Shown: piece by piece, positions 21,157-36,365 of the stretch
Numbering within the stretch: position 1 is the stretch's first letter
Layout of the letters: each line of letters opens with the position of its first letter
Source: a virus
Reading direction: 5' to 3' (one strand)
Virus record (IMG/VR): IMGVR_UViG_3300021379_000791
Span: 1-36,365 of that record
DNA length: 36,365 nt
Made by a program: the position numbers and the translations under genes
The notes under the pieces: model-generated
Told to the model about the DNA's origin: nothing
Database searches by the model: none
What the model saw: only the letters and a program-made list of their open reading frames with translations

Positions 21157-21709
21157 TGGTACACCATCAGCTTGGAAAACAGATCCAACGCAGTTCAACG
21201 ATTTTAGATTAGATGTTAAGGATGACCTTGTTGCTTACACAGATGTGAAGACAATTCACAGTGATAGCGTACGAGGTCAATTTAATCTAGGTTGGAAGGA
21301 CAATGAGTTTGATAATGAGGTGTTCTTACATCAGGTAATTACTGGTTCACGTAGTTGTCAGATTATTGATCACTATGCCAAAGCTCAATGGCCAGATCTC
21401 AGAGATCGCGAACCAGTCAGAACAGTGCTCAACTTAGGCATACCCGGTTCTGTCTATCGAAGTCATACTGACGACGTCGATATGAATAAGCATACACTGA
21501 CAGTTCTATACATGGTCAATCTCAAATGGGAACATGGATGGGGTGGTGAATTTAAATATTACCATCCATTCACCCGTGAGATCATTTCTGTGGTAGAATA
21601 TAATCCTGGCCGCATGATTCTGTTCGATGGTAATCTCGAGCATACCGGCGCATGTATTGCAAATCATGCAGACTTTTTTAGAATGACAATAGCAGCTAAT
21701 TATGTTTGA
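21149..21709 (+). CDS. 2-oxoglutarate/Fe(II)-dependent oxygenase
   Basis: With the ATG at 21149 the product has 186 residues. In-frame ATGs at 21146, 21137, 21131 and 21128 also exist. The jelly-roll metal triad is visible: SHTDDV (His106, Asp108), distal LEHTGA (His165) and Arg178 in FFRMTI for 2-oxoglutarate. GSVYRSHTD, MVNLKWEHGWGGEFKYY and GRMILFDG follow the prolyl-4-hydroxylase order. It overlaps the zinc-ribbon gene and the dCMP deaminase by eight bases each. The target may be a protein, nucleotide or small molecule. A second member of the superfamily lies at 27510. Confidence 0.85.
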   Translation: MNDGTPSAWKTDPTQFNDFRLDVKDDLVAYTDVKTIHSDSVRGQFNLGWKDNEFDNEVFLHQVITGSRSCQIIDHYAKAQWPDLRDREPVRTVLNLGIPGSVYRSHTDDVDMNKHTLTVLYMVNLKWEHGWGGEFKYYHPFTREIISVVEYNPGRMILFDGNLEHTGACIANHADFFRMTIAANYV

Positions 21710-22202
21710 TCATAAATGGGACGTAAGATTCCTCGAACTCGCAAAGCACATCTCAACATGGTCCAAAGATCCATCGAGGCAGATCGGCGCTGTTGCTGTA
21801 CGCAATCGTCAAGTCCTTGCAACAGGATACAATGGATTTCCTACTCATATTCAAGATACGTACGAACGTTATGACGATCGCGAAACAAAGTATGAACTCG
21901 TGGTGCATGCTGAGATGAACTGTATCTATAATGCAGGTAAGAATGGTATGTCATTGGCAGGATCTACGATGTATGTGTATGGTCTACCAGTGTGTCATGA
22001 GTGTGCTAAAGGTATCATACAAACTGCAGTACAGCGAGTTGTGATTGAAGATAAAAAATACACGGATGCAAGATGGATAAATAGTTTTGGTAAAACACTA
22101 AAATTATTTGATGAAGCAGGAATTATTTGTAATGCAATCGAGTTATCCTCATCCGTGGACGATGCACCACACAGCAACCGCCAGCTGGATCTTGGAATCT
22201 GA
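21702..22202 (+). CDS. cd: deoxycytidylate (dCMP) deaminase
   Basis: The 166-residue enzyme converts dCMP to dUMP, the substrate of ThyX. The zinc-site motifs are HAE (His69, Glu71) and PVCHEC (Cys98, Cys101). WSKDPSRQIGAVAV and TGYNGFP are the usual substrate-loop elements. The Cys motif has Val after Pro rather than the common PCxxC, but the ligands are intact. The last 23 codons overlap the next gene, which may have extended or replaced its original end. Confidence 0.93.
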   Translation: MFDHKWDVRFLELAKHISTWSKDPSRQIGAVAVRNRQVLATGYNGFPTHIQDTYERYDDRETKYELVVHAEMNCIYNAGKNGMSLAGSTMYVYGLPVCHECAKGIIQTAVQRVVIEDKKYTDARWINSFGKTLKLFDEAGIICNAIELSSSVDDAPHSNRQLDLGI

Positions 22203-22575
22203 AGATCTAAAAGATGATTGGGTTGGCTTTGTCTATCTTATTACGAACAAAAAGAATGGCCGCAAATATGTCGGTAAGAAATTCTTTTGGCGTACACTTA
22301 AACTCCCACCTCTCAAAGGCCAAAAACGTAAACGTAAAGTCACCAAGGAATCCGATTGGAAGAAATATTGGGGCTCGAGTAATGAACTCAAGGCTGACAT
22401 TGAGAAGTATGGCGAGGACAATTTCACACGCGAAATACTACATTTTTGTGATTCGAAGACAGAGCTGTCTTATATGGAATTAAAAGAACAAGTAGATCGT
22501 GGTGTACTCTTGACTGACATGTATTATAATGATTTTATAGGTGGAAAGATAAATGGAAAATTCTTACGTTCCTGA
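22132..22575 (+). CDS. GIY-YIG nuclease (SegE-like)
   Basis: With the ATG at 22132 the protein has 147 residues and overlaps the deaminase by 71 bases. The core has GFVYLITNKKNGRKYVGKK (about 32-50), the GIY and YIG strands in degenerate form, then KKYWGSSNELKADIEKYG and REILHFCDSKTELSYMELK with the metal-site Glu. This matches the SegE-type GIY-YIG family of T4-like phages, which are free-standing homing endonucleases. It appears full-length. The overlap with a core metabolic gene fits a mobile gene inserted next to a conserved target. Confidence 0.78.
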   Translation: MQSSYPHPWTMHHTATASWILESEDLKDDWVGFVYLITNKKNGRKYVGKKFFWRTLKLPPLKGQKRKRKVTKESDWKKYWGSSNELKADIEKYGEDNFTREILHFCDSKTELSYMELKEQVDRGVLLTDMYYNDFIGGKINGKFLRS

Positions 22576-24339: not shown

Positions 24340-24368
24340 TGTACATTGCCAGAAATATGCTGTAGAAT
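24340..24368 (+). promoter_or_regulatory. phage promoter, TGTACA-17-TAGAAT type
   Basis: TGTACA (24340-24345) and TAGAAT (24363-24368) are separated by exactly 17 bases and precede RNase H by 30 bases. The pair sits in a 61-base gap. AACA before the first box and AGAC after the second are shared with other members at 29070 and 31186. Confidence 0.75.
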
Positions 24369-24398
24369 AGACTCTATAGAATAAATTAGGCTTTTATT

Positions 24399-25259
24399 AT
24401 GATTATATTAGATTTCAATCAAGTTGCCATTGCCAATCTCATGGTTCAAGGCACACGTAATCTCGAAATAAACGAGAATCTACTGCGTCACATGATTCTG
24501 AATAGTATTCGTATGAATCGTGTTAAGTTTGCTAGCGAATATGGCGAGATGATTATCGCCTGTGATGCTACTGACAACTGGCGCAAAAAGTATTTTCCAT
24601 ACTACAAGGCAAATCGTAAGGTATCACGCGATGAGTCTTCGATAGATTGGAAAGAAATGTTTCGCATCCTCAATAAGATTCGCGAAGAACTCAGCGAACA
24701 CTTTCCCTATCCAACCATTCGTGTTGAGACAGCCGAAGCTGACGATGTCATTGCAACTCTATGCCACGAGCATGGCCGAGAACTTGGTGGCGAACCTATT
24801 CTCATCCTCTCTGGTGATAAAGACTTTCAGCAGCTTCAACGATATGCCAACGTAAATCAATACGATCCTACTCGTAAGCGTTGGATTCGATGCAGCGATC
24901 CGGAAACATTCCTCATCGAACACATTCTCAAAGGCGATGCATCCGATGGCATACCAAATGTATTGAGCAGCGATGATACATTCGTAGCTCGAGCAAGACA
25001 AAAACCAATGCGACAGAAGTTTATCGATTCTGTCTTGGAAGCAAATAAGCCAGAAGCATCTACCGTATTCACAGACGAGATCAGTCGTAATTACCAACGT
25101 AATCGTGTATTGATCGACCTCAACTGTGTACCAGAAGACATCGCTGAACAAACCTTGCAGATGTTCGAAGCACAACAGGACAAGGGTAGAGGCAAGCTGT
25201 TCAATTACTTTATCAAACATAAGCTCAAAAATCTTACAGAATGCATAACGGAGTTTTAA
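24399..25259 (+). CDS. rnh: RNase H / 5'-3' exonuclease (T4 Rnh, FEN family)
   Basis: This 286-residue nuclease removes RNA primers and trims flaps on the lagging strand. FEN-family acidic residues are visible: Asp5 (MIILDFNQ), Asp56 (IIACDATDNWR), Glu113, Asp115 and Asp116 (AEADDVIA), Asp140 and Asp142 (LSGDKDFQQL), and Asp180 and Asp183 (GDASDGIPN). Length is near T4 Rnh (305). It has its own promoter and abuts the next gene without a gap. Confidence 0.93.
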   Translation: MIILDFNQVAIANLMVQGTRNLEINENLLRHMILNSIRMNRVKFASEYGEMIIACDATDNWRKKYFPYYKANRKVSRDESSIDWKEMFRILNKIREELSEHFPYPTIRVETAEADDVIATLCHEHGRELGGEPILILSGDKDFQQLQRYANVNQYDPTRKRWIRCSDPETFLIEHILKGDASDGIPNVLSSDDTFVARARQKPMRQKFIDSVLEANKPEASTVFTDEISRNYQRNRVLIDLNCVPEDIAEQTLQMFEAQQDKGRGKLFNYFIKHKLKNLTECITEF

Positions 25260-25682
25260 ATGAAACGCATTAGTCAGATACTCGAAGAAGTATCAAAAGA
25301 AAAAAGTGTCAACAAAAAAGTGGAGATGCTGCAAGCCGAGAGGAACAACAATGCATTGATTGCAGTCTTGCAAGCCACATTCGATGACCGTATTATCTTT
25401 GAACTACCTGAAGGTACACCACCCTACAATGTACCTGACGATATGATTGACAATAAAGCTGGCTTATACAAAGAATTTCGTAAGTTCTATATCTTTACGA
25501 AGAATCAACGTAGTGCAAACATTCGCAAAGATAAGCGTGAGTATGCATTCATTCAAATGCTCGAGTCTGTGCATCCTATTGATGCTGAGCTGTTGTTGGC
25601 AATGAAAGATAAGAAGATGCCATATAAGACTATCACTAAAAACCTTGTACTGAAGGCCTATGGGGAGGACTTTGTAAAATGA
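25260..25682 (+). CDS. conserved T4-like phage protein (DUF6433-like)
   Basis: The 140-residue protein starts directly after the RNase H stop. It has an N-terminal helix (ISQILEEVSKEKSVNKKVEM), then FELPEGTPPYNVPDD and a helical second half with LLLAMKDKKMPYKTITKNLV. The ELPEGxPPY element next to rnh matches a family in marine T4-like phages that I recall as DUF6433. Function is unknown; the position hints at replication. Confidence 0.7.
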   Translation: MKRISQILEEVSKEKSVNKKVEMLQAERNNNALIAVLQATFDDRIIFELPEGTPPYNVPDDMIDNKAGLYKEFRKFYIFTKNQRSANIRKDKREYAFIQMLESVHPIDAELLLAMKDKKMPYKTITKNLVLKAYGEDFVK

Positions 25683-25843
25683 GTAAGTCGCGTGACCGTA
25701 ATCATAAGCGAGAGGAAGCTCGCTATACTGATGGCGCTAAAAAGTCGGTAAAGACCGGGAACGAAAGAATCGAAAAAAAGATAAAAAACTTGTTCAGAAG
25801 CGGTAATGCAGAGCAGTTTTTAGAAAGCGAATTGTATAAATAA
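25679..25843 (+). CDS. small basic protein
   Basis: The ATG at 25679 overlaps the preceding stop (ATGA) and opens 54 codons. It is very basic (MSKSRDRNHKREEARYTDGA, then KKIKNLFRSGNAEQFL). Its stop is embedded in the TATAAATA late box. A nucleic-acid-binding role is possible; no family is recognised. Confidence 0.55.
   Translation: MSKSRDRNHKREEARYTDGAKKSVKTGNERIEKKIKNLFRSGNAEQFLESELYK
25835..25842 (+). promoter_or_regulatory. T4-type late promoter (TATAAATA)
   Basis: An exact TATAAATA overlaps the end of the small basic gene. The ATG of the next gene is only six bases away, so initiation here would give an almost leaderless message for it and mainly serve phoH downstream. The box could also be a chance Tyr-Lys-stop sequence. 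Confidence 0.4.
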
Positions 25844-25847
25844 AACC

Positions 25848-26084
25848 ATGCCAATATATGTATATCAAAACGATGAAACTGGCGAGCTTGAAGAGCACAG
25901 TCATCGTATCTCAGAGATGGATTCCTTCTTGGAAGAAAATCCTCACCTCACAAGAAAAATACAATCATCTGGATTCATACGCGGAACCGGCGTCGGGAAA
26001 TCAAAACCTGACGAGGGTTTTCGTGATGTTCTCAAATCAATCAAAAAGGCTTCAGGGAGGGGCAGCACGATAGAGACTTTCTAA
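25848..26084 (+). CDS. small FmdB-like phage protein without zinc cysteines
   Basis: This 78-residue protein opens MPIYVYQNDETGELEEHSHR and continues SEMDSFLEENPHLTRKI. This is the shape of FmdB-type small proteins found in phages, but with no Cys pairs, so zinc is not bound. The end (FRDVLKSIKKASGRGSTI) is basic. It lies just before phoH. Function is unknown. Confidence 0.6.
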   Translation: MPIYVYQNDETGELEEHSHRISEMDSFLEENPHLTRKIQSSGFIRGTGVGKSKPDEGFRDVLKSIKKASGRGSTIETF

Positions 26085-26117
26085 CATTCCACAATAACAA
26101 GAAGAAGGGCAGTACTT

Positions 26118-26858
26118 ATGGCACTTTCAAAGAAACAGCGGCGAACACTCAAGAAGCATGGTATATTGGATGATCGCGAACATGTTCCACAGAAGGGCAT
26201 GAGACTTCGAAACATCGAGCCAAAGACATTTGCACAACAACAATGTTTTGAAGCGTTCGATAACGGAGATCACTTATTACTACATGGAATGGCTGGTACG
26301 GGTAAGACATTTGTCTCGATGTATTTGGCACTCAGTGAGATATTCGAGAATCCTAATAATACACACTACGATGTCACGATCATACGCAGTGTGGTTCCAA
26401 CGCGAGATATAGGATTTCTACCGGGCAAAGAAGACGAAAAGATTGCAGTGTACGAAGAGCCATATAAGGCGATATGCAATGAACTATTTGGCCGTGGAGA
26501 TGCATACGACATCCTCAAACAAAAGAATCTTGTTAACTTTACGTGCACCTCATTCGTTCGAGGATGTACATTTAACGACTCTATCGTTATAATAGATGAA
26601 GTAAATAATATGACGTTCCACGAGCTAGACTCTCTCATTACTAGACTCGGTGAAAATTGTCGTGTTATCTTTTGCGGTGACTTCCGCCAAAGTGATTTAA
26701 CGAAGGCACAGGAAAGGGCCGGCCTAACTAATTTTATGAAGATTATTGATGAGCTATCTGGTTTTGAACACGTAGAGTTCAGAGCCGACGACATTGTTCG
26801 TAGCTTACTAGTGAAGGAGTATATCATTGCAAGAGAACACCTCGGGCTTTGCGCTTAA
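26118..26858 (+). CDS. phoH: PhoH-like ATPase
   Basis: This 246-residue P-loop protein has Walker A GMAGTGKT (57-64) and Walker B IVIIDEVNNM with Asp160 and Glu161. CGDFRQSDL (about 186-194) is the sensor region, and IIRSVVP and IGFLPGK are the PhoH-specific elements. PhoH is common in marine phages; an RNA-related ATPase role is proposed for the family. It ends with a 32-base overlap with the exonuclease gene, which has its ribosome site inside phoH. Confidence 0.92.
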   Translation: MALSKKQRRTLKKHGILDDREHVPQKGMRLRNIEPKTFAQQQCFEAFDNGDHLLLHGMAGTGKTFVSMYLALSEIFENPNNTHYDVTIIRSVVPTRDIGFLPGKEDEKIAVYEEPYKAICNELFGRGDAYDILKQKNLVNFTCTSFVRGCTFNDSIVIIDEVNNMTFHELDSLITRLGENCRVIFCGDFRQSDLTKAQERAGLTNFMKIIDELSGFEHVEFRADDIVRSLLVKEYIIAREHLGLCA

Positions 26859-27510
26859 ACTATTTGAGGCAAAGCAACTCAAGCAAATAAATGAAGATGG
26901 CCGACGGCTGTACGTAACTGAAAGTGGTGAGAAATACCCATCGGTTACTACAGCCCTCGGTGCACTCAATCGTAAGAAGATCTGGGAATGGCGCAAGCGT
27001 GTAGGTGCTGAAGCTGCCAACAAGATCTCCACTCAAGCATCTCGTGCAGGTACTGCTGTCCATAATGTAGCTGAGGACTATATCCTCGGTAACAGTTTGG
27101 AAGCACACAATCCTATTGCTCTCAATACTTTCAATACGATCAAGCCATTGCTCGATGATAATGTCGGTGATGTGTATGGTGTTGAACTTCGTATGTATTC
27201 TGATGTACTCAAGACTGCCGGCACTGCTGACCTGATATGTCAGTACGATGGCAAGAATACTGTGCTTGACTTCAAAACATCCAAGCGATGGAAGAAGAAA
27301 GAAGAAATCACGACATACTTTATGCAGTCTGCAGCCTATGCACAGATGGTGAAAGAACATTATGACATGGATATTGAACAGATCGTCATACTCATGGCTG
27401 TAGGTCAAGGTGAAGGTCATCTCGTATTCACCGAGAATGTGTCTGATTGGCAGGCGATGACGACTAAGTTCTTCGATCTATTCCACAAAGGCAAGCTAAA
27501 GGACTTCTAA
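26827..27510 (+). CDS. PD-(D/E)XK exonuclease (RecB/Cas4-like)
   Basis: The 227-residue nuclease starts at TTG, chosen because AAGGAG (26814-26819) stands seven bases before it and no ATG precedes the conserved region. Motifs appear in order: GTAVH with His79, GTADLI with Asp135, and VLDFKTS with Asp148 and Lys150, followed by QSAAYAQMV with the Gln-Tyr motif. These are RecB-family landmarks. Marine T4-like phages carry this gene beside phoH, probably for DNA processing or host DNA degradation. Confidence 0.88.
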   Translation: MQENTSGFALKLFEAKQLKQINEDGRRLYVTESGEKYPSVTTALGALNRKKIWEWRKRVGAEAANKISTQASRAGTAVHNVAEDYILGNSLEAHNPIALNTFNTIKPLLDDNVGDVYGVELRMYSDVLKTAGTADLICQYDGKNTVLDFKTSKRWKKKEEITTYFMQSAAYAQMVKEHYDMDIEQIVILMAVGQGEGHLVFTENVSDWQAMTTKFFDLFHKGKLKDF

Positions 27511-28145
27511 TGTTTTCGAGCACCTATGCAGTTGCAATGGGTATCATTGAGCCAGATATATGCGATGAGATCGTACGTATTGGTGAACAACTCGATGATA
27601 TGTCAGGCGAGACAGAGAATGGAATAGATTCAGAGCTTTCGTTAGCACGTAATTCTACTGTGTCTTGGTTTACACAGTGGCAGGCTGAAAAATTCGATCT
27701 CGAATTTGATATGATCTATTCACATGTATTTGAGAAGTTCAATGACGTCACTAACGAAGCAGGTTGGGGGCATGTAGATATCACAAAGAGTCAAGCATTT
27801 CAGTACACACGTTACGGGCCCGGTCAACACTATGACTGGCATCCGGATCAACACTTGATGCCTTATGCTGATGGTGATGATCAAGGTCTCATACGAAAAA
27901 TGAGTATGACACTAACATTAAGTGAACCCGAAGATTTTACAGGCGGTGAGTTCATGATCGAGGATCACTTTCGTGGCGGTCCGAATGAGTATTGGCATCG
28001 AATCAAAAATGTAACAGCATTGCATGCGCTGCCTCGAGGCAGTATTATTGCATTCCCATCATATGCTTGGCATCAGGTCAAACCTGTAAAGTCAGGTGAA
28101 CGTAAATCACTAGTCGGTTGGTTCTTAGGTCCGGAGTGGAAATGA
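27510..28145 (+). CDS. 2OG-Fe(II) oxygenase (PiuC/PKHD type)
   Basis: This 211-residue enzyme has YDWHPDQ (His111, Asp113), AWHQVKPV (distal His188) and GERKSLVGW with Arg198 for 2-oxoglutarate. EDFTGGEFMI precedes the last strands. This is the PKHD-hydroxylase arrangement, also known from cyanophages. It overlaps the exonuclease stop by one base and the next gene by four. The substrate is unknown; hydroxylation of a protein or a demethylase role are both possible. Confidence 0.88.
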   Translation: MFSSTYAVAMGIIEPDICDEIVRIGEQLDDMSGETENGIDSELSLARNSTVSWFTQWQAEKFDLEFDMIYSHVFEKFNDVTNEAGWGHVDITKSQAFQYTRYGPGQHYDWHPDQHLMPYADGDDQGLIRKMSMTLTLSEPEDFTGGEFMIEDHFRGGPNEYWHRIKNVTALHALPRGSIIAFPSYAWHQVKPVKSGERKSLVGWFLGPEWK

Positions 28146-28366
28146 GTTGGTTAGAAAAAATACGTAACAGAGTAGTTGGTGAGTTGGAACGTCCTGTCGA
28201 AGACAATCCACTCGACAAAGCAATCGTTGAGAACGGTGATCATCCCGAAGTCAACAAGGTGTATCAGGCCAGATGGGTCTGGTATCACACTATCCTCGCA
28301 GTGGAGATCTTCTTCACTAACATCCTACTTATAGGCATTTTTGTCCTGCTTGCAGTCAAGTTGTGA
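28142..28366 (+). CDS. conserved phage membrane protein
   Basis: With the ATG at 28142 (ATGA overlap) the product has 74 residues. It has a cytoplasmic N part (MSWLEKIRNRVVGELERPVE, then NPLDKAIVENGD) followed by one hydrophobic C-terminal helix (about 45-72, FFTNILLIGIFVLLAV). The order RPVxDNPxDxAxVExGDxPxV then YxARWxWYHT is shared by T4-like marine phages as I recall. Function is unknown. Confidence 0.72.
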   Translation: MSWLEKIRNRVVGELERPVEDNPLDKAIVENGDHPEVNKVYQARWVWYHTILAVEIFFTNILLIGIFVLLAVKL

Positions 28367-28468
28367 GTTATACGAAAAAGTTATAAGCATATTACAAAAT
28401 AATCTAAAAAAAGTTTAAAAAAGTCGCAATAAAAGTCTAACAAAATCAATAAGTTACAGCTCTTTAAA

Positions 28469-28491
28469 AAGTCTTTATAAATCAAAGACTT
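28469..28491 (+). repeat. inverted repeat upstream of the 28497 promoter
   Basis: AAGTCTTT and AAAGACTT are perfect complements separated by seven bases. It ends five bases before the promoter's TGTACA box. It could be an operator or a weak hairpin that ends upstream transcription; it has no GC-rich stem. Confidence 0.4.
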
Positions 28492-28496
28492 AGAGT

Positions 28497-28525
28497 TGTA
28501 CATTCTCGTGCCTGCTTGATATAAT
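28497..28525 (+). promoter_or_regulatory. phage promoter, TGTACA-17-TATAAT type
   Basis: TGTACA (28497-28502), exactly 17 bases, then a consensus TATAAT (28520-28525), 32 bases before the ArdC-like gene. It has the best -10 of the five-member family. Confidence 0.75.
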
Positions 28526-28557
28526 TCTTCTTGTCAAATGGGAAAAGAGAGAAAAAG

Positions 28558-28818
28558 ATGATCAACTACCTTACTAAAAAAGCTTACTCTGGCAAGAATG
28601 CAGCTATCTTGGCTGAGTACGAATCAGCTGGTTTCCTGACTTATATGCAAGCGAAGTCAATTGGACGTGCATGCACCAAGGGTGAAGGTATCCAGTTGAT
28701 GCGTGTTGTTACCAAGAAGATCAAAGACGAGATCACTGGCGAAGTAAAGTTTAAGAAAGTTCCAAAGCGTTTTTGGGTTTTCCCTATCGAATCAACTGTA
28801 GAAATGGAGGTAGCGTAA
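28558..28818 (+). CDS. stand-alone ArdC N-terminal-like domain (putative antirestriction/ssDNA-binding)
   Basis: The 86-residue protein has SGKNAAILAEYESAGFLTYM, then QAKSIGRACTKGEGIQLMRV and KRFWVFPIEST. This follows the ArdC N-terminal pattern: G-x-N start, aromatic-Thr-x-x-Q-A, G-x-x-x-x-K-G-E-x-G, then an F-x-V-F strand. ArdC proteins bind single-stranded DNA and protect incoming DNA from restriction. Here the metallopeptidase half is absent. It is first after a strong promoter, as expected for an early defence gene. The assignment is by pattern only. Confidence 0.55.
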   Translation: MINYLTKKAYSGKNAAILAEYESAGFLTYMQAKSIGRACTKGEGIQLMRVVTKKIKDEITGEVKFKKVPKRFWVFPIESTVEMEVA

Positions 28819-29033
28819 TGTTAGTTAGATTGCCTGAGTATGATGGTCAGCGTTGTGATTACACTGGCATGCCTATGGGCATGGCTGTTGGTGCTTTCGC
28901 ACGCGGTGCGACTGGTCGTGTATGTCTTGTCTTGGCATTCGATGCCGATGAGGCACCTAACAAGAACTGGGTCACCCTCAAAGAGGTCGCTGAGTGGGCC
29001 GAGTCTGTTCCCGGCGGTTACCTAGACTTCTAG
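28818..29033 (+). CDS. small phage protein of unknown function
   Basis: The ATG at 28818 overlaps the ArdC-like stop (TAATG), with GGAGG (28806-28810) eight bases before. The 71-residue product has a hydrophobic centre (GMAVGAFARGATGRVCLVLA) and ends WAESVPGGYLDF. I know no family. It is coupled to the ArdC-like gene, so the two may act together. Confidence 0.65.
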   Translation: MLVRLPEYDGQRCDYTGMPMGMAVGAFARGATGRVCLVLAFDADEAPNKNWVTLKEVAEWAESVPGGYLDF

Positions 29034-29037
29034 GTAA
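29018..29037 (+). repeat. perfect inverted repeat over the 28818 gene stop codon
   Basis: TTACCTAGA and TCTAGGTAA are perfect complements separated by two bases and include the TAG stop. As RNA it would form a stem of about eight pairs with a four-base loop. There is no T-run, so it may slow decay or act as a weak terminator. Confidence 0.4.
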
Positions 29038-29069
29038 TAAGCTTATAACAAAAAAGTCTAAGAAAAACC

Positions 29070-29098
29070 TGTACAATGTACTCAAGTTGCTGTAGAAT
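29070..29098 (+). promoter_or_regulatory. phage promoter, TGTACA-17-TAGAAT type
   Basis: TGTACA (29070-29075) and TAGAAT (29093-29098) with a 17-base spacer. The stretch TTGCTGTAGAATAGAC is almost identical to that at 24357-24372. It lies 25 bases before the small membrane protein gene at 29124. Confidence 0.75.
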
Positions 29099-29123
29099 AG
29101 ACACGTCAAATGGAGAAAAGCTC

Positions 29124-29276
29124 ATGTCAGTAATGAAAGATTATGCAAAAAAGCCAGTTCGCACACGCGACATCGTCAGCATCAAAGATATCATCGCAGG
29201 TGGCATCGCTACCATCATGATGGGTGCAGTACTTGGTTTACTTATCGGCTACGGCCTTCTTTACACAGGAGTATAA
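29124..29276 (+). CDS. small membrane protein
   Basis: The 50-residue product begins at the ATG at 29124, preceded by GGAGAAAAG. A basic, soluble start (MKDYAKKPVRTRDI) leads into a membrane helix (about 22-46, IIAGGIATIMMGAVLGLLIG). It is the first gene after a TGTACA promoter. Early small membrane proteins of phages often affect the host envelope, but nothing here proves it. Confidence 0.65.
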   Translation: MSVMKDYAKKPVRTRDIVSIKDIIAGGIATIMMGAVLGLLIGYGLLYTGV

Positions 29277-29278
29277 GC

Positions 29279-29563
29279 ATGAATTTCACTAGTCTTCAAG
29301 GTCACATCCCAGCAACGTTCGAGCAGTTGGTCGAAGTATTCGGCGAGCCTACGTACATGGATCCAAGCGAAGATGGTAAGGTCAACACTGAGTGGGAACT
29401 CACTGGTTTTGATCTCTTCGGCGAGCCAATGCCTGTCACCATCTACGATTGGAAAGAGTATGATGGTGGCGAGCGTTCACGCAGTGGTCAAAAATATGAG
29501 TGGCACATCGGTGGCACTAATCGATTTGCAGTTAATTACGTAATGGAGAAGTTGAATGGTTGA
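29279..29563 (+). CDS. conserved phage protein of unknown function
   Basis: This 94-residue protein starts two bases after the preceding stop with AGGAG upstream. It has TFEQLVEVFGEPTYMDPSED, then EWELTGFDL, VTIYDWKEYDGG and YEWHIGG. The FGEPT...TxEW...IYDWKEY...WHIGG pattern is widespread in T4-like and other phages. Function is unknown. Confidence 0.72.
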   Translation: MNFTSLQGHIPATFEQLVEVFGEPTYMDPSEDGKVNTEWELTGFDLFGEPMPVTIYDWKEYDGGERSRSGQKYEWHIGGTNRFAVNYVMEKLNG

Positions 29564-29858
29564 TATGCCTAACCTCGAGTCGAAGCTCAAGGCTCACGAC
29601 TGGTTCTATCACATGTCTGACGATCATCGTGCATACACACGTGGTCGTACTCAAAGCGCCGAGATCAACAATCTAATGGAGATTGCTCGAGTTGCTGGTG
29701 ATGGTGCTGCTGCGGCTGAGTTGTATAATCAGTACAACCCAAATGCACAAGAGTCAGCATTCAGATTTGCTGACAAAGTCTGTCACATGTACCTCGACGT
29801 AGATGGTACATATTCAGTTAGTTGGTTAACGAGGGAAGATTATGAAGCGCAGAACTAA
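29556..29858 (+). CDS. conserved phage protein of unknown function
   Basis: The 100-residue protein overlaps its upstream neighbour by eight bases and its downstream one by 17. It contains LKAHDWFYHMSDDHRAYTRG (about 10-29), then EINNLMEIARVAGDGAAAAE and a helical end. The HDWFYHMSDDHRAY element is recurrent in small phage proteins, with no known role. Confidence 0.68.
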   Translation: MVDMPNLESKLKAHDWFYHMSDDHRAYTRGRTQSAEINNLMEIARVAGDGAAAAELYNQYNPNAQESAFRFADKVCHMYLDVDGTYSVSWLTREDYEAQN

Positions 29859-30201
29859 AGAAAAGTTAGAGACTATGGAAGATTCCTTCGCACCAGATTT
29901 CAAGCAAGAATCTATGATCATGCAGCTACGCAAGGTAGTTGACTCAATCGGTAATCCGAAGCCTCTTCACTGGGTTCGTACCGACAATGGTCGTAACATC
30001 TGGGTAGCTCACAAGCATGCAGTCAAGATTGTAGACCTCTACGATCGCCTGACATCACGTGAAGCCAAGTCATCGTACGTCGACAATCGTATCGATCCTG
30101 TTGTCAATGCTCAGATGACACGAGCAAAGCGTCAGCTCACTGATGCACTGCAAACCACCGAAGGTCTGCAAAATCTCATCAAAGAGTTGCGCAATCAATG
30201 A
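29842..30201 (+). CDS. small basic phage protein
   Basis: The 119-residue protein starts at ATG with GAGGGAAG upstream inside the preceding gene. It has KPLHWVRTDNGRNIWVAHKH (about 40-59) and ends with a long helix (LQTTEGLQNLIKELRNQ). I recognise no family. It overlaps the radical SAM gene by four bases, so they are translationally coupled. Confidence 0.65.
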   Translation: MKRRTKEKLETMEDSFAPDFKQESMIMQLRKVVDSIGNPKPLHWVRTDNGRNIWVAHKHAVKIVDLYDRLTSREAKSSYVDNRIDPVVNAQMTRAKRQLTDALQTTEGLQNLIKELRNQ

Positions 30202-30959
30202 TTCTATTCGGGTCGTATGACCTTGATATCATCGAGGAGTGTAATCTGCACTGCGCAGGTTGCACCTCTCTCGACTATCTTGGTTATGATAGACCGGGCA
30301 AGGTAACGATCTCATCGATGACCGTTGCCATGTTGGAAGAGTTATTGTTAAAGATAGGCAGACATGTTACGAAGATCGAAGAGTTGTCTCTTGTTGGTGG
30401 TGAACCGACATTGCATCCACGATTCGAGGATATCATCGACACACTGCGTGAATCTGGCCTCGTAGGTAAGATAAATGTAGTGACGAATGGTACCAACTTC
30501 ACACCTGAGATCATTGAGATACTGAAGAAGGTAGATTGTGTACAGATCTCAGATTACATGCGAGCTGCAGACGGCGATACGATATTCGAAACAATCGACG
30601 ATATGCCATTCGACTATAATATATGGCATCGCAGTGAGTTTCATCGTATAGGCGAGTGTGAACCAATGTCACCACAGGAGAATTGGAATGCATGCTTTAT
30701 GAAAGACTACTGTCGTGTGATTACGATGGATGGCCTAGCCAGATGTAGAGTATGCTCCAACGAACAAATTCACATTGCACCATGGCATGACGAGGCTGCA
30801 CTGACTGAGACGATTAGCCGACATGAGGCATATGATCGTTGCGGTACATGCGGTACACCAGCATCAGCAGAGCACTATGAATGGAGCTCACTGAAGCCAG
30901 AAATCGATGCGAAGAACTATAAACGTGGTATTGAACTGATAAAGGCAGTAACATTATGA
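30198..30959 (+). CDS. radical SAM enzyme with extra cysteine clusters
   Basis: This 253-residue protein has the CxxxCxxC cluster at Cys15, Cys19 and Cys22 (CNLHCAGC) and the SAM-binding GGEP at 67-70, followed by VVTNGTN. Its C-terminal part holds six more cysteines: 166, 172, 183, 186 (CFMKDYC, RCRVC) and 215, 218 (CGTC). The middle group suggests a SPASM- or Twitch-like auxiliary iron-sulfur site, typical of peptide- or sugar-modifying enzymes. It is not the short QueE type. The substrate cannot be inferred. It overlaps both neighbours by four bases. Confidence 0.85.
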   Translation: MILFGSYDLDIIEECNLHCAGCTSLDYLGYDRPGKVTISSMTVAMLEELLLKIGRHVTKIEELSLVGGEPTLHPRFEDIIDTLRESGLVGKINVVTNGTNFTPEIIEILKKVDCVQISDYMRAADGDTIFETIDDMPFDYNIWHRSEFHRIGECEPMSPQENWNACFMKDYCRVITMDGLARCRVCSNEQIHIAPWHDEAALTETISRHEAYDRCGTCGTPASAEHYEWSSLKPEIDAKNYKRGIELIKAVTL

Positions 30960-31168
30960 AGATTTTGAAAGAGATTACAGAGTGGGACAAATGCGAGTAC
31001 AATGTACCGAACCACACGTATGCCATCAATGATGGTGGCAAGATGGTTGCCTATCGTAAGACAGGTACCAAGGACTGGATGCGGTTTGCAAAGCCTCGAT
31101 TCTTTGATCGATCGCGCCGTAAGTTCATTACACTGGCTAAAGATGTCGGTGACGAATATTTTTCGTAA
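30956..31168 (+). CDS. small conserved phage protein
   Basis: The 70-residue basic protein overlaps the radical SAM stop (ATGA). It has EYNVPNHTYAINDGGKMVAY and KDWMRFAKPRFFDRSRRKFI. The pattern ...VPNHxYxxxDGGKMVAYxxxGT... is common in T4-like marine phages. Function is unknown, though its coupling to the radical SAM gene is worth noting. Confidence 0.65.
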   Translation: MKILKEITEWDKCEYNVPNHTYAINDGGKMVAYRKTGTKDWMRFAKPRFFDRSRRKFITLAKDVGDEYFS

Positions 31169-31185
31169 AAATGTTAATATTAACA

Positions 31186-31214
31186 TGTACAAGCAAATCA
31201 TTTCTTAGTAGAAT
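31186..31214 (+). promoter_or_regulatory. phage promoter, TGTACA-17-TAGAAT type
   Basis: TGTACA (31186-31191) and TAGAAT (31209-31214) with 17 bases between, followed by AGA as in the members at 24340 and 29070. It precedes the DUF932 gene by 47 bases. Confidence 0.75.
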
Positions 31215-31261
31215 AGAGCTTGTAAATTGGAAAACACACATCACATACAGGAAGATATATT

Positions 31262-32269
31262 ATGTCGCATGAAGTAGAAATGATCAACGGTCAAGCACAA
31301 ATGGCATTCGTAGGCGAAACACCATGGCACGGCCTAGGCGTACGAGTCGAAGGTGACCTCACTCCACAAGAAATTCAGAAAGCTGCCGGTCTCGACTGGT
31401 CAGTATCAAAAGAACCTATCTTTGCTGCAATGGAAGGCGAGGACCTCATCGAGGTACCCGGTAAGAAAGCATTGATTCGTTCATCAGACAACAGTGTCCT
31501 CGATGTAGTTGGCGATCAGTGGATTCCAGTACAGAACGACGACGCGTTTAACTTTTTTGACGATTATGTCAAAACTGGTGGCATGGAAATGCACACAGCA
31601 GGTTCGCTCAAGGATGGTCGTATCGTATGGGCATTGGCGAAGGTCAACGAGACTTTCACATTGTTTGGCGGTAAGGACCAAGTTGAGTCTTATCTACTCC
31701 TCTCTAATCCTCATAACTATGGTCGCGGTGTTGACGTTCGCTTCACACCCACCCGTGTGGTGTGCAATAACACCCTATCAATGGCCTTGTCAGGCAAGGC
31801 ATCTCTTGGAATCTCTTTGAATCACCGGCAAGAATTTAATGCCGAGAAAGTACGCGAAGCTCTCGCGCAAGCATCTGAGCAGATGAATCAATATGCTCAA
31901 GCTGCTGAGTTCCTCGGTTCAAAGAGATTCAATCAAGATAAGTTGACTGAGTACTTCTCACGTGTCTTCCCGAAGACGACTGGCAAGGACAAGGGTATCA
32001 ACTTCGAAGAGCTGATGGCTAACATCAAGTCAGGTAAGAACATTCTATCACGGAATGCAACGACTGCTCTTGAGGTCATTGACACACAGCCCGGTGCAAA
32101 TCTCGGTGCTGGTACATGGTGGTCTGCATACAATGCTGTCACCTACATGACAAACCACACGCTTGGCAACAATGCTGATACACGATTGCAGTCAGCTTGG
32201 TTCGGTCATAACAAAAACACCAACATCGAGGCTCTCGGTCTCGCAGTTGAATACGCAGAGGCTGCTTAA
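31262..32269 (+). CDS. DUF932 / TIGR03299-type phage protein
   Basis: The 335-residue protein has the family signature near the start (FVGETPWHGLGVRVEG), then VVGDQWIPVQNDDAFNFFDD, RFTPTRVVCNNTLSMAL and TWWSAYNAVTYMTNH. These are the conserved blocks of the phage- and plasmid-borne DUF932/TIGR03299 family. The biochemical role is not established. Its own TGTACA promoter and a good AGGAAG ribosome site suggest strong early expression. Confidence 0.9.
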   Translation: MSHEVEMINGQAQMAFVGETPWHGLGVRVEGDLTPQEIQKAAGLDWSVSKEPIFAAMEGEDLIEVPGKKALIRSSDNSVLDVVGDQWIPVQNDDAFNFFDDYVKTGGMEMHTAGSLKDGRIVWALAKVNETFTLFGGKDQVESYLLLSNPHNYGRGVDVRFTPTRVVCNNTLSMALSGKASLGISLNHRQEFNAEKVREALAQASEQMNQYAQAAEFLGSKRFNQDKLTEYFSRVFPKTTGKDKGINFEELMANIKSGKNILSRNATTALEVIDTQPGANLGAGTWWSAYNAVTYMTNHTLGNNADTRLQSAWFGHNKNTNIEALGLAVEYAEAA

Positions 32270-32275
32270 GCAGCC
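32260..32275 (+). terminator. terminator-like hairpin at the end of the DUF932 gene
   Basis: GGCTGC and GCAGCC form a perfect six-pair stem with loop TTAA and cover the stop codon. Only TT follows, so it may be a weak terminator or a stabilising 3' hairpin. The late box begins two bases downstream. Confidence 0.5.
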
Positions 32276-32276
32276 T

Positions 32277-32284
32277 TATAAATA
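32277..32284 (+). promoter_or_regulatory. T4-type late promoter (TATAAATA)
   Basis: An exact TATAAATA stands 28 bases before the 32313 gene, directly after the hairpin of the DUF932 gene. This hairpin-then-promoter order separates an early unit from a late one. Confidence 0.7.
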
Positions 32285-32312
32285 TAGTTACACTAACACA
32301 CAGGAGACTATA

Positions 32313-32570
32313 ATGGAATACCTCGTAGCAGGTCTTATTATTGTCGGCGTTCTATATTACGCCTTTAGCAGCAGAACCAACCTACCTGACCTCACTGAGA
32401 CTGACGCACCAGTCGAGAAACCAGAGCCAGCACCAGAACCAGCTGCTCCTGATTTGGCTTCGATGACGAAGGTTCAGATCGACGAACTAGCATTGAGTCA
32501 AGGCATCAAGCTAGACCGACGTCGCACCAAAGCACGGATGATCGAACAATATATCGAATTGACTCGATAA
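32313..32570 (+). CDS. membrane-anchored protein with SAP/HeH-like C terminus
   Basis: The 85-residue protein has a start supported by CAGGAG. Residues about 3-19 are a membrane anchor (YLVAGLIIVGVLYYAF). A Pro/Glu/Ala-rich linker follows (EKPEPAPEPAAPD). The end has MTKVQIDELALSQGIKLDRR and KARMIEQYI, like SAP or HeH/LEM helix-extension-helix DNA-binding motifs. This would tether DNA to the membrane, an inference. A late promoter lies upstream. Confidence 0.62.
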   Translation: MEYLVAGLIIVGVLYYAFSSRTNLPDLTETDAPVEKPEPAPEPAAPDLASMTKVQIDELALSQGIKLDRRRTKARMIEQYIELTR

Positions 32571-32803
32571 TGCAATCTATTGATGATTCGCAGGGTATCA
32601 AAGAAGTCCTGCAAGAAATCGAGAAACTGACTCGTGATGGCTCTGATTATTTAGATGCCATCCTTCACTATTGTGAGAAGCATGATATTGAAATCGAGTC
32701 GATTGCTCGATACATTAAGAAAAACGTGGTCCTCAAGGCTCGACTACAGGAAGAGGCTGAGGAATTAAATTATTTGCAAAAAACATCAAGGCTACCGATT
32801 TGA
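32570..32803 (+). CDS. 33: late transcription co-activator (gp33-like)
   Basis: The 77-residue acidic, helical protein has YLDAILHYCEKHDIEIESIA (about 27-46), then IKKNVVLKARLQEEAEELNY and a terminal LPI. The order YxDAxxxxCExxxIExE then L..K...EAE.LN...LPI is that of gp33 in marine T4-like phages. gp33 links RNA polymerase to the sliding clamp for late transcription from TATAAATA promoters, of which this window has several. It overlaps the neighbours by one and four bases. Confidence 0.7.
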   Translation: MQSIDDSQGIKEVLQEIEKLTRDGSDYLDAILHYCEKHDIEIESIARYIKKNVVLKARLQEEAEELNYLQKTSRLPI

Positions 32804-33381
32804 TTTATATGGATGCATACGATGCTTACAAAAAGTTTCTTGCCATCAAATTACATTTCTCAAATCCGAAATACGATTACTTCAAATACCGTGGTCAGGT
32901 AAGAGTAACACGTGATTCGTTCGAGACTCGTAATGACAAGTACCACTTTCATAAGCTAAGCAAGAAACAAGATTTAGAATTATTCCTCGCATGTAATATA
33001 CGAGAGAATGGAGACATGTGGGTAGGTAAGTTGTTTGATGATGAATGTGTCAAACATTTTGTCAACACACAGAAAAAGCTCCAATCACTCGAGTACATGT
33101 TTAAGAATGATATGTCTCAGTTTGATTCACTCAATGAGGCATTCGTCGTCAGTAATGGTGACTATCCTAAAATACTCAACATGTACAATCGCGGGGAGAT
33201 TATGACCGAAACAATGGTCATACTGAATGCTACATGTCGTGTGTTTGATTATTGGGATACCACAATCTCTGACACAATTATATGGCCGAAGACTCGACAA
33301 CGACTCTTAAAATATACGGGCTTCATGAATTTTGACGTAGACAAATACAATGATTTGTTAAAGGATTTATATGATACATAA
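32800..33381 (+). CDS. 59: helicase loader (gp59-like)
   Basis: This 193-residue protein begins MDAYDAYKKFLAIKLHFSN, then YDYFKYRGQVRVTRDSFETR and ENGDMWVGKLF. Its C half has NRGEIMTETMVILNATCRVF and KYTGFMNFD. These blocks and the size (T4 gp59 is 217) match the gp59 family, which loads the replicative helicase on gp32-covered DNA. The nearby gene 32 supports the call. It overlaps the peroxiredoxin gene by 11 bases. Confidence 0.78.
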   Translation: MIYMDAYDAYKKFLAIKLHFSNPKYDYFKYRGQVRVTRDSFETRNDKYHFHKLSKKQDLELFLACNIRENGDMWVGKLFDDECVKHFVNTQKKLQSLEYMFKNDMSQFDSLNEAFVVSNGDYPKILNMYNRGEIMTETMVILNATCRVFDYWDTTISDTIIWPKTRQRLLKYTGFMNFDVDKYNDLLKDLYDT

Positions 33382-33904
33382 ACAAGTGCCTTTCGTTGTC
33401 TTCAATACTCGTGTAAGAGATGAGTCACTTGGAGGCGACAATCCATATCGATGGCAAGATATGACCACAGACGATTACTTCGCAGGCAAGCGAGTGATCG
33501 TATTCAGTTTACCCGGTGCATTCACACCAACCTGTTCAACCTACCAGTTACCTGACTTCGAGGCAATGTTTCCACGATTTCAAGAACTCGGTATCGATGC
33601 AATCTACTGTATCAGTGTCAACGACACATTCGTGATGAATGCATGGGCAAGAGATCAAGGCTTAGAAAACGTACAAGTCATACCTGATGGCTCAGGTGAG
33701 TTCACTCGTATGATGGGTATGCTTGTCAAGAAAGACAATCTAGGTTTTGGTATGCGATCATGGCGTTATGCAATGCTCGTAGACAATGGCGATATCGAAA
33801 CGACGTGGGTAGAACCGGGTCGTGAAGATAATGCCGTCGGCGATCCCTATGGTATGACCTCACCTCAAAATATATTGGAGACGATCGTAGAACCATGGGA
33901 GTAA
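33371..33904 (+). CDS. peroxiredoxin (Prx5/redoxin type)
   Basis: The 177-residue protein has the peroxidatic motif PGAFTPTCS with Cys55, preceded by RVIVFSLPG and followed by LPDFEAMFPRFQELGID and CISVNDTFVMNAWA, the typical Prx5 order. WRYAMLVDNGDI and the C terminus are complete. It reduces peroxides with glutathione or glutaredoxin as donor. Cys69-type resolving cysteines are not evident, so a one-Cys mechanism is likely. It is inserted between gp59-like and gp32-like genes. Confidence 0.92.
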   Translation: MIHKQVPFVVFNTRVRDESLGGDNPYRWQDMTTDDYFAGKRVIVFSLPGAFTPTCSTYQLPDFEAMFPRFQELGIDAIYCISVNDTFVMNAWARDQGLENVQVIPDGSGEFTRMMGMLVKKDNLGFGMRSWRYAMLVDNGDIETTWVEPGREDNAVGDPYGMTSPQNILETIVEPWE

Positions 33905-33933
33905 TTATTGACACACAAAAAAGGAACACACAC

Positions 33934-34203
33934 ATGTCCACAACAACACCTTACGAATTAAGATTTAAAGTTCTCGAAATGGCACGTGATCTATGCATGG
34001 ATGAATTCAATATGAAGTCACATGCTTTTCATGATCTACAAAGTCGACTTGAAGAAAAGCTTGATGGTCCGATTGGTGAGAACACAGCTCTCGTTATACG
34101 AGATATGATCGATGATTTGGTTGAGGCTACACCCTCGATGCCAAAGACTGAACAGATCAACGCCAAAGCGAAGGAACTCTACGAATTTGTATCCACGAAG
34201 TGA
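33934..34203 (+). CDS. conserved small T4-like phage protein
   Basis: The 89-residue product starts at the ATG at 33934 after AAGGA. It has TTPYELRFKVLEMARDLCMD, a helical middle, and PKTEQINAKAKELYEFVS. The TPYxLRFxxxxMAxD...AKAKELYxFV order recurs in marine T4-like phages near genes 59 and 32. No function is known. Its stop is followed immediately by the gene 32 promoters. Confidence 0.75.
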   Translation: MSTTTPYELRFKVLEMARDLCMDEFNMKSHAFHDLQSRLEEKLDGPIGENTALVIRDMIDDLVEATPSMPKTEQINAKAKELYEFVSTK

Positions 34204-34211
34204 TATAAATA
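34204..34211 (+). promoter_or_regulatory. T4-type late promoter (TATAAATA)
   Basis: An exact TATAAATA directly after the TGA of the preceding gene and two bases upstream of a TGTACA box. It would give gene 32 late expression with a leader of about 85 bases. Confidence 0.65.
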
Positions 34212-34213
34212 CC

Positions 34214-34242
34214 TGTACAGCAGGCTCGTCTTGCTGTACAAT
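34214..34242 (+). promoter_or_regulatory. phage promoter, TGTACA-17-TACAAT type
   Basis: TGTACA (34214-34219) and TACAAT (34237-34242) with 17 bases between. A second TGTACA (34235-34240) overlaps the -10 box. It stands 63 bases before gene 32. Confidence 0.7.
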
Positions 34243-34305: not shown

Positions 34306-35220
34306 ATGAACGATTTTGCATCCCTCAAATCCTCACGTAAGTCGCAATTCGATAAGCTCTCAGCAGCAGCCGAGAAAGTCAGCGGCAATCAACAACAGAA
34401 CAATGGACCAGATGAACGATTCTGGAAGCCAACAGTCGATAAGGCTGGCAATGGTTCTGCTATCATTCGATTCCTACCTGCACCAGCCGGTGAAGACGTA
34501 CCATTCGTCCGATACTGGGATCACGGCTTTCAAGGGCCCGGTGGTTGGTACATCGAGAAGTCATTAACATCCATCGGTCTCGATGATCCTGTTGGTGAGT
34601 TCAACTCAAAGCTTTGGAACTCTGGTCTTGAATCAGACAAAGAGATTGCTCGTAAGCAGAAGCGTCGTCTTCACTACGTCAGCAATATTCTTGTCGTCTC
34701 TGATCCAGCCGCACCTCACAATGAAGGTAAGGTGTTCCTCTATGAGTATGGTAAGAAGATCTTTGATAAGATCAATGACCTCATGCATCCTGCATTCGAA
34801 GACGAAGATGCTGTAAATCCATTCGACTTCTGGGAAGGTGCTAACTTCCGTCTACGCATTCGCAAGGTGGAAGGCTATCGAAACTACGACAAGTCAGCAT
34901 TCGATTCTCCGACTGCTGTGTCAAATGATGATTCAGAACTCGAAGCGATTTGGAAACGTCAGTATGGTCTTGCCGAACAGGTAGATCCTAAGCAATTCAA
35001 GTCATACGAAGAACTTCAACAGAAGTTGAATCGTGTACTTGGTGGACAGGCTCCTCAAGGTATGGCCGAGGATGTACCATCAGCCGCGCCACAATCGGCG
35101 CCAGCATGGGAACCTCCTGTTGACGACGTAGTTGCAGATGCTCCGGCTGTTGCTCCGGCTCCAACATTTGAAGATGATGATGACTCGCTAGACTTCTTTA
35201 AGAAACTCGCAGCGGAATAG
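34306..35220 (+). CDS. 32: single-stranded DNA-binding protein (gp32-like), without zinc cysteines
   Basis: The 304-residue protein coats single-stranded DNA in replication and recombination. The N-terminal LAST-like basic patch is SLKSSRKSQ (6-14). The core shows GGWYIEKSLTSIG, RRLHYVSNILVVSDPAAPHN, EGKVFLYEYGKKIFDKI and FDFWEGANFRLRIRKVEGYR, matching the gp32 fold. The acidic C-terminal tail (FEDDDDSLDFF) recruits partners such as gp59. T4 gp32 binds zinc with three Cys and one His; here the whole protein has no Cys, so zinc is not bound that way. AAGGAA precedes the ATG. Confidence 0.93.
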   Translation: MNDFASLKSSRKSQFDKLSAAAEKVSGNQQQNNGPDERFWKPTVDKAGNGSAIIRFLPAPAGEDVPFVRYWDHGFQGPGGWYIEKSLTSIGLDDPVGEFNSKLWNSGLESDKEIARKQKRRLHYVSNILVVSDPAAPHNEGKVFLYEYGKKIFDKINDLMHPAFEDEDAVNPFDFWEGANFRLRIRKVEGYRNYDKSAFDSPTAVSNDDSELEAIWKRQYGLAEQVDPKQFKSYEELQQKLNRVLGGQAPQGMAEDVPSAAPQSAPAWEPPVDDVVADAPAVAPAPTFEDDDDSLDFFKKLAAE

Positions 35221-35223: not shown

Positions 35224-35246
35224 AAAGGGGCTTCGGCCCCTTTTTT
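35224..35246 (+). terminator. bidirectional intrinsic terminator, UUCG tetraloop
   Basis: AAA, then GGGGC-TTCG-GCCCC, then TTTTTT, beginning four bases after the gene 32 stop. The A-run upstream gives a U-run for transcripts from the other side, so it can also end the convergent gene whose stop is at 35245-35247. Confidence 0.92.
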
Positions 35247-36365
35247 ATGACTGTGGTTGACTCGCCAAGAATGAATCCGCAGCACGGAACTGAGGCAATG
35301 GATTACCAACACTCGCTTTCGTTGTATTACCAGCGGGTGAATGAGTCTGCTGTGTTGGTTGCATATTGACTGGCACGACCATGGGTATGATCTGCTGTAC
35401 GGCCTCCTCATTCACATCACCCTTTAGCATGGGTAATGTACTCTCAACAGCACGCGCAATCAACTCCTCACCATCCTCTTTGATATTGGTAATGAAGGTA
35501 GATGCTCCTTCCTGTATGGTCTGAAGCATCTCTGTAATACCAGCCTCTTCGGCAGATTCGGTCACACGCTCAATCGTATTCGTAAAGAACGTCGAGATCG
35601 CAGAAGGACCAGCCTCAGTATCAACAATTGCTTGCCTCTCTTCTCTCTCTTCCTTCAGTAAGATCTCGTACTCATCATTATTCTCACGTCCAGTATTCAC
35701 CAAGTCCGCAATCCAATCACGATTCTTTTTGGTCTGTTCCAATTGTTTCAGTAAGGCCGCCAACAACTCCTCGGTCATGACTGCATTTAAATTGCCACCT
35801 CCGGCGTCAGTAAAGTCCACCACCTCACCGAGTGGAACCTCCTTGGCTCTCTCTAATTGCGCAATATTATAGTCGATATCAGGTAGAAAAGCCGCAAAAT
35901 TATTCGTTAAATCATTATTCAACTTCTGCATACCAGTGCCAATCAAATCCATGATCGGCTCCATCTTCTCTATCTGCTCGCCTTGTGTCATATCCTCATT
36001 GATAAAGGATTCAATACCATCCTGTGCCATCTCAGTCAGAGCAGGCAGTCCAGTCTTCAATGCCTCCTGATACTGCATATCAATATTATAGTTCTTCACA
36101 TGCTCCTGTACGACATCCACACCTTTTACGATAACATCAGAGAGCAGTGCCATGCCTGTAGAGAAGTCCGGAAGGGTGAAGAGAGGCTCTGAAACACTCG
36201 ATTCCTCGTCAGAATTAATCAAATTAAAATCGGGGTCGTAATCGTTAGATTCCGTAGAGAGTTTTTCCTCAGAGGCAGGCTTAGGTGCTCCGTCCTGCGC
36301 CTCTTTCTTCTCCATCAGCTCAAACTCTCTCAGTATTCGCGTAGAATAGCCACGATCAACCGTTC
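35245..36365 (-). CDS. unrecognised acidic, helical phage protein (5' end outside window)
   Basis: The only minus-strand gene. The frame stays open beyond the ATG at 36315 to the window edge (reading STRILREFELMEKK), so the gene is probably cut and that ATG is internal. About 373 residues are visible. The sequence is Glu-rich and helical (EYEILLKEEREERQAIVD), with a low-complexity acidic start and a C-terminal tail with MVVPVNMQP and FRAADSFL. No family is recognised. Opposite orientation and its shared terminator mark a transcription-unit boundary; a structural-gene block often follows in T4-like genomes, which is inference. Confidence 0.7.
   Translation of the reverse strand, partial: TVDRGYSTRILREFELMEKKEAQDGAPKPASEEKLSTESNDYDPDFNLINSDEESSVSEPLFTLPDFSTGMALLSDVIVKGVDVVQEHVKNYNIDMQYQEALKTGLPALTEMAQDGIESFINEDMTQGEQIEKMEPIMDLIGTGMQKLNNDLTNNFAAFLPDIDYNIAQLERAKEVPLGEVVDFTDAGGGNLNAVMTEELLAALLKQLEQTKKNRDWIADLVNTGRENNDEYEILLKEEREERQAIVDTEAGPSAISTFFTNTIERVTESAEEAGITEMLQTIQEGASTFITNIKEDGEELIARAVESTLPMLKGDVNEEAVQQIIPMVVPVNMQPTQQTHSPAGNTTKASVGNPLPQFRAADSFLASQPQS

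Follow-up and report, generated by a model that had tools for sequence, protein, structure and literature searches.

TGTACA promoters of uncultured T4-like phages and their relation to the dCMP hydroxymethylase gene

The promoters of the window

The uncultured virus record IMGVR_UViG_3300021379_000791 was analysed as a single window of 36,365 bases, and this report concerns a set of candidate promoters in it in which the hexamer TGTACA is followed, after exactly 17 bases, by TANAAT. Judged by its sequence, it comes from an uncultured T4-like phage, whose genome it covers only in part, and it carries T4-type genes for ribonucleotide reductase, primase, an RNase H-like exonuclease, phoH, a gp59-like helicase loader and gene 32.

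The original prediction described five such pairs, at 24340, 28497, 29070, 31186 and 34214, placed in short gaps before genes. All five were confirmed: the TGTACA is exact, the spacer is 17 bases long and a TANAAT box is present, and each pair lies in a gap with the ATG of the next gene 26-64 bases downstream; the continuation TAGAATAGA, said to be shared by three of them, is indeed present at 24340, 29070 and 31186. A sixth exact match, which had been missed (26565-26593, + strand), falls inside a phoH-like open reading frame (ORF, 26118-26858). As a record of the same clade, G009, also has a TGTACA match within the equivalent ORF, this one is more likely a coincidence of codons than a promoter.

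All six matches are on the + (coding) strand, where 0.04 would be expected in the window, and none of 100 shuffles reached six. TGTACA itself occurs 19 times; six of the copies are followed by TANAAT at a spacing of 17, and the other spacings in the range 8-29 gave none, with a naive binomial P of about 1e-12 for the coupling. The layout is that of sigma70 promoters, a -10 box near TATAAT with a -35 hexamer 16-18 bases upstream, and is found at all six sites, always at exactly 17. TGTACA is identical to the canonical -35 box TTGACA at four of six positions, and position 3 is T in all six sites.

The first promoter (24340-24368, + strand, TGTACA-17-TAGAAT continued by AGA) ends 31 bases before an RNase H-like gene (24399-25259) that matches the exonuclease family phrog_107, and in its orthologues this place is taken by TGTACA or TTTACA. 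The second (28497-28525, + strand, TGTACA-17-TATAAT), the only one in the window with an extended -10 (TGn), precedes a small anti-restriction-like gene (ATG at 28558; phrog_7245, E 4.5e-5), and TGTACA is present in five of six orthologous loci. The third (29070-29098, + strand, TAGAAT with AGA) stands before a protein of 50 residues (ATG at 29124) that has one hydrophobic stretch and gave no match in a family search. The fourth (31186-31214, + strand, again TAGAAT with AGA) precedes a DUF932-type gene (31262-32269, phrog_1221); 32 orthologous loci have TGTACA in ten cases, TTGACA in two and neither in 20.

The fifth promoter (34214-34242, + strand, TGTACA-17-TACAAT) lies before gene 32 (34306-35220, + strand, phrog_224), the gene for the single-strand DNA-binding protein, on which the tree and the promoter comparison described below are based. 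A perfect 9-base inverted repeat, TGTACAGCA/TGCTGTACA, stretches from its -35 to its -10 box. Immediately upstream (34204-34211, + strand) is TATAAATA, a match to the T4 late promoter consensus as given in a passage of PMC1524935; three more exact matches to it occur on the + strand at 4832, 25835 and 32277. Gene 32 is followed on the minus strand by an ORF for 356 residues (35245-36315) for which PHROG searches gave no match and Pfam searches none that was significant. Two weaker candidates of the promoter type were also seen in the window, TGTACT-16-TATAAT at 22503 and TTTACT-18-TATAAT at 13592.

The promoter class in relatives of the window

Gene-32 loci were fetched irrespective of the motif, giving 80 loci, a set that includes near-copies. 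At a spacing of 17 these held 97 forward matches and no reverse match, with 34 of the 80 loci positive; at the neighbouring spacings there were 26 forward matches at 16 and none at 18. The motif was found in 15 of 23 whole records, with 23 copies in the 167.6 kb of record G015. According to a simple purpose-made ORF caller, 18 of these 23 sites are outside called ORFs, in a genome whose non-coding share is only 4.7%, so that the motif is far from being equally common inside genes. A consensus built from 53 dissimilar sites of relatives has a clear extended TGG-TATAAT. TGTACA-N17-TANAAT is thus a genome-wide promoter class in the relatives of the window, and the original description of a promoter family with neither a TTGACA nor a MotA box is supported. 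Among 11 named relatives, one has the TGTACA class and seven have the TTGACA class. Exact TGTACA-17-TANAAT sites also occur in two cultured phages, Acinetobacter phage 133 (five sites, L539-L546) and RB69 (two sites, L511 and L517), which could be used for bench tests of TGTACA promoters.

The position upstream of gene 32 was compared in 126 orthologous loci: 21 have TGTACA, 46 TTTACA, 18 TTGACA and 41 none of these, and the hexamers are exchanged nearly always at a spacing of 17. Because the orthologous promoters have TTTACA or TTGACA at the same place and spacing, TGTACA would be the -35 element itself and not an extra operator, and on this comparison it is very probably a -35 variant. TGTACA and TTGACA occur together in only one of 113 gene-32 loci, part of which had been fetched by motif. 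In a tree of 93 gene-32 rows, at least four changes are needed to account for the TGTACA label, and the clade of the window (12 rows, support 99/100) is nested where the labels are mostly TTGACA or none. The -35 dialect has, therefore, switched more than once.

Predicted cytosine modification and position 3 of the -35 box

A block of genes is common to two near-complete TGTACA genomes, G009, which belongs to the clade of the window, and G015, which belongs to a separate clade (L252/L259 and L266:3124-10505, respectively), and is absent from three TTGACA phages. It contains MazG-like and NMAD-like hydrolases, a deoxycytidine monophosphate (dCMP) deaminase, a synthase-like enzyme, two conserved proteins termed u383 and u327, a beta-glucosyltransferase-like protein and a pyridoxal phosphate (PLP)-enzyme-like protein. 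Another near-complete genome of the clade of the window, G033, has the block without an adjacent dCMP deaminase. The window itself has a dCMP deaminase-like gene (21702-22202, + strand) homologous to that of the block, its closest G015 homologue being the one that sits in the cassette.

The thymidylate-synthase-like gene of G009 and G015 matched T4 dCMP hydroxymethylase with an E value of 1.1e-79, against 7.8e-13 for thymidylate synthase. A first reading of the cassette as a thymidine hypermodification system was dropped on account of this match, and by sequence the enzyme belongs to the T4 gp42 family of dCMP hydroxymethylases. The aspartate that discriminates cytosine, seen as ND in the wild type and as NN in a solved D-to-N mutant, was kept in all nine strong hydroxymethylase matches examined; we take it to be D179 of T4. 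It could be read in 37 of 44 cassette loci with a hydroxymethylase and was D in all of them, the other seven not being readable. As the gp42-family enzyme keeps the residue that discriminates cytosine from uracil, the cassette is predicted to be a cytosine-modification system with a T4-like first step.

The cassette shares with the glucosyl-hydroxymethylcytosine system of T4 an enzyme of the gp42 family that has the cytosine-specific Asp, together with a dCMP deaminase and MazG-like hydrolases, but differs from it in the extra conserved u383, u327 and PLP-enzyme-like proteins, and its match to T4 beta-glucosyltransferase is weak (E 0.002, short of the cut-off). Searches of solved structures with profiles of the beta-glucosyltransferase-like, PLP-like and u383 proteins gave nothing significant. 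No match was found for u383 in Pfam and PDB searches or for u327 in Pfam, and a predicted structure of u383 (mean predicted local distance difference test score, pLDDT, 74) matched nothing in PDB with an E value of 0.001 or lower.

Record G066 (L443, L444; 39.6 kb) combines a hydroxymethylase and u383 with 24 TGTACA promoters, several of them only 6-8 bases before an ATG, a distance that suggests leaderless messages. In cassette carriers L361-L441 (23 loci examined, some on contigs of 150-256 kb), which carry u383 and mostly also u327, another -35 variant is seen, TGAAAC-N17-TANAAT, with 21 different sites at a spacing of 17 and no more than four at each of the other spacings from 10 to 24.

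The hydroxymethylase was searched for in 64 records, and T or G at position 3 was counted in T[TG][TG]AC[AT]-N17-TANAAT. Among named phages with the enzyme the T:G ratio was 11:1 in T4, 8:0 in RB69 (whose match is divergent, E 1.8e-11), 5:1 in 44RR and 3:1 in CC31; among the other records it was 29:4 in G033, 14:1 in G009, 34:2 in G015, 24:0 in G066 and 18:1 in G078. T is thus preferred in nine of ten carriers, the exception being G035. The ratios are reversed in genomes without the enzyme: 1:13 in RB49, 2:6 in Aeh1, 4:12 in Melnitz, 4:13 in C48C1, 3:10 in Syn9, 1:1 in RB43 (1:12 at spacings of 16-18), 0:1 in RB16 (1:9 at those spacings) and 5:9 in HTVC008M, counted on 87 of its 147 kb. Here G is preferred in eight of nine, the exception being Acinetobacter phage 133. 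The comparison does not include phage phiM12 (100 of 194.7 kb, 0:0), nor P-SSM2, S-PM2, S-SZBM1, DLP6, phiN3, KVP40, Mosig and Cr30.

With G035 left out and phage 133 counted among the hydroxymethylase carriers, the pooled ratios were 157:12 for these and 20:65 for the others. Genome-level Fisher tests that include G035 gave 1.2e-4 with phage 133 taken as modified and 1.1e-3 with it taken as unmodified; these values are indicative only, the genomes being related and RB43 being entered as G from its count at spacings of 16-18. In a spacing control T was in excess in the hydroxymethylase group and G in the group without it. Loci fetched by their cassette proteins, a retrieval blind to promoters, agreed: 32 of the 44 with a hydroxymethylase had a T majority, three a G majority and nine were uninformative. 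Across phages, T at position 3 correlates with the dCMP hydroxymethylase gene.

Published passages are in line with several of these counts. GTTTAC-like -35 boxes in T4-like phages, with G preferred at -33 in RB49, RB43 and Aeh1, are described in a passage of PMC1524935 (Nolan et al. 2006), and one of PMC5587285 describes pf16, a T4-like phage without hydroxymethylase, as having TTGACA promoters, found by a promoter search that favoured TTGACA. Gene 42 is listed in RB69, CC31, 44RR and all four Acinetobacter phages, including 133, in a passage of PMC2993671 (Petrov et al. 2010), which gives denB and alc a similar distribution. A link between modification and position 3 is not stated in the passages at hand of these three papers, nor in those of PMC8056088 and PMC2988021. 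No title or opening of an abstract gave it in literature searches on TGTACA promoters and on modified cytosine in connection with early promoters or the recognition of promoters, most subscription papers being outside their scope.

The probable role of the five sites of the window is that of early or middle promoters in a T4-like phage. The host polymerase, carrying its main sigma factor, would read them, and their -35 box would be a recoded one that accompanies cytosine modification. Region 4 of sigma contacts the pair at position 3 of the -35 box. In these phages cytosine would be replaced by a bulky 5-hydroxymethyl derivative; according to a passage of PMC2988021, the group that glucosylated hydroxymethylcytosine carries into the major groove is bulky. 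Where G3 is paired with a modified cytosine, the modification would lie in that groove where sigma region 4 reads and could disturb recognition. Selection may then have exchanged G:C for T:A at position 3, and the GTTTAC boxes of T4 early promoters would be a parallel. TGTACA would accordingly be a recoded TTGACA, with T at position 3 and G or T at position 2. That the modification is the cause of T at position 3, and not only its companion, is a proposal towards which the balance tips slightly.

Several observations weigh against it. TGTACA adds a new G:C pair at position 2, and so a new template cytosine, and keeps the C at position 5, neither of which simple avoidance of modified cytosine predicts; the preference for G at position 2 is left unexplained by the mechanism, as is the escape of G035, which has a hydroxymethylase with the conserved Asp and yet uses TTGACA (T:G 0:8). 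The three cassette loci with a G majority (L348, L358 and L375) all have genes closest to those of G035, and L358 lies in it. G035 and the TGAAAC carriers rule out the cassette as a sufficient cause. Phage 133 has T (11:1), yet the hydroxymethylase search gave no match in it; a passage of PMC8056088 credits it with DenB and Alc and with none of the known synthesis enzymes, and allows that it may have an unknown one. In the spacing control CC31 was ambiguous and the T count of HTVC008M equalled the control. The genomes compared are not independent. Finally, the enzyme was not found in the 36-kb sequence of the window, of which the clade mates G009 and G033, like G015, have it, nor in the available sequence of most of the smaller TGTACA records, which are fragments.

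Alternative readings and known systems

The TGTACA box might instead be a host dialect, the main sigma factor of the hosts preferring TGTACA and the phages copying their hosts. TGTACA promoters are found in two or more separate T4-like clades, and also in records that match the T4-like set little or not at all (such as G066 and L040); shared hosts would predict this, and a host dialect would let G035 differ. Against this, phages of one host species, E. coli, use opposite letters at position 3 (T in T4 and RB69, G in RB49, RB43 and RB16), as do phages of the single host genus Aeromonas (T in 44RR, G in Aeh1). Since T4 and RB69 have another letter there than RB49 and RB43 in spite of the shared host species, the host sigma factor alone cannot explain position 3. 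A strict form of the motif was scanned against 84,980 bacterial and archaeal species and matched 23 stretches, where about 15 are expected by chance (our own estimate, for a narrow pattern); 12 of the 23 are in Streptococcus. A bacterial lineage using the motif was rejected, the scan being close to chance apart from one Streptococcus locus. It is seen once in each of the 12 genomes (L228, L230 and ten others), many of them S. parasanguinis, and the copies are probably one inherited locus. The host dialect is thus weakened by the same-host contrasts and is unlikely overall, though it may still account for G having been chosen at position 2.

The original prediction had raised a phage activator or repressor as a possible reader of the TGTACA palindrome. 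Such a protein would recruit or block the polymerase in the manner of MotA or of a repressor. The hexamer is palindromic, and the inverted repeat before gene 32 would suit such a protein. The palindrome is not kept, however: the non-palindromic TTTACA stands at the same place in 46 of the 126 orthologous gene-32 promoters, and with the 18 TTGACA loci it is replaced in 64, against 21 with TGTACA and 41 with none of these. The 17-base spacing differs from that of a MotA box, and no candidate regulator emerged when G008, G009, G014, G015 and the window were compared with three TTGACA phages. A small conserved protein of about 100 residues, considered as a -35 factor, was rejected since the TTGACA phage C48C1 has it too. 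Searches for MotA (PF09114, 21 records) and AsiA (PF09010, 22 records) were positive for T4 only and for no TGTACA record, which eliminates appropriation of the MotA/AsiA type among the records searched. A dedicated regulator is therefore not supported and seems improbable. T4 middle promoters do offer a precedent for a phage promoter class with an upstream box other than TTGACA, but neither the MotA box spacing nor either of the two proteins was found here.

It is very improbable that T at position 3 reflects a polymerase whose alpha subunit is ADP-ribosylated by phage Alt, an idea that goes back to a passage of PMC1524935 on T4-like early promoters, where T or G at -33 is noted in different T4-like phages and Alt is named as the possible reason, since passages of PMC2988021 find stimulation by Alt to be independent of specific -35, TGn or -10 elements and PMC1524935 itself reports putative alt genes in RB49 and Aeh1, both users of G.

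Among known systems, the TGTACA class is close to the early promoters of T4 (GTTTAC with an extended -10), which share its sigma70-type layout, 17-base spacing, T at -33 (position 3) and many copies before replication and early genes. They differ in that the commonest -35 box here is TGTACA, with G at position 2, whereas T4 has no TGTACA at a spacing of 17, and in that MotA and AsiA were not found here and no middle class of the T4 type was seen. The canonical sigma70 promoters (TTGACA) of cyanophages, Melnitz, C48C1 and RB49 have the same place, spacing and -10 box, the gene-32 promoters being orthologous, but have TG at positions 2-3 where GT (or TT) is found here.

A more general proposal is that cytosine hypermodification rewrites the -35 code of sigma70: phages that replace cytosine could not use G:C at position 3 and would recode it throughout the genome. 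The outcome would be TTTAC in T4 and T(G/T)TACA in the uncultured phages described here, and other cassette carriers may have arrived at TGAAAC; the switch would have been made several times independently, and the -35 box of uncultured phages would serve as a readout of modification from sequence only. We consider this possible, with the chances a little below even. If true, it would provide one physical cause both for the GTTTAC box of T4 and for the split between T and G at -33 among T4-like phages noted in 2006, it would tie promoter evolution to DNA modification, and it would allow modified DNA to be predicted from sequence for uncultured phages, and their promoter map with it. The causal claim aside, a promoter class of widespread uncultured T4-like phages is useful for their annotation.

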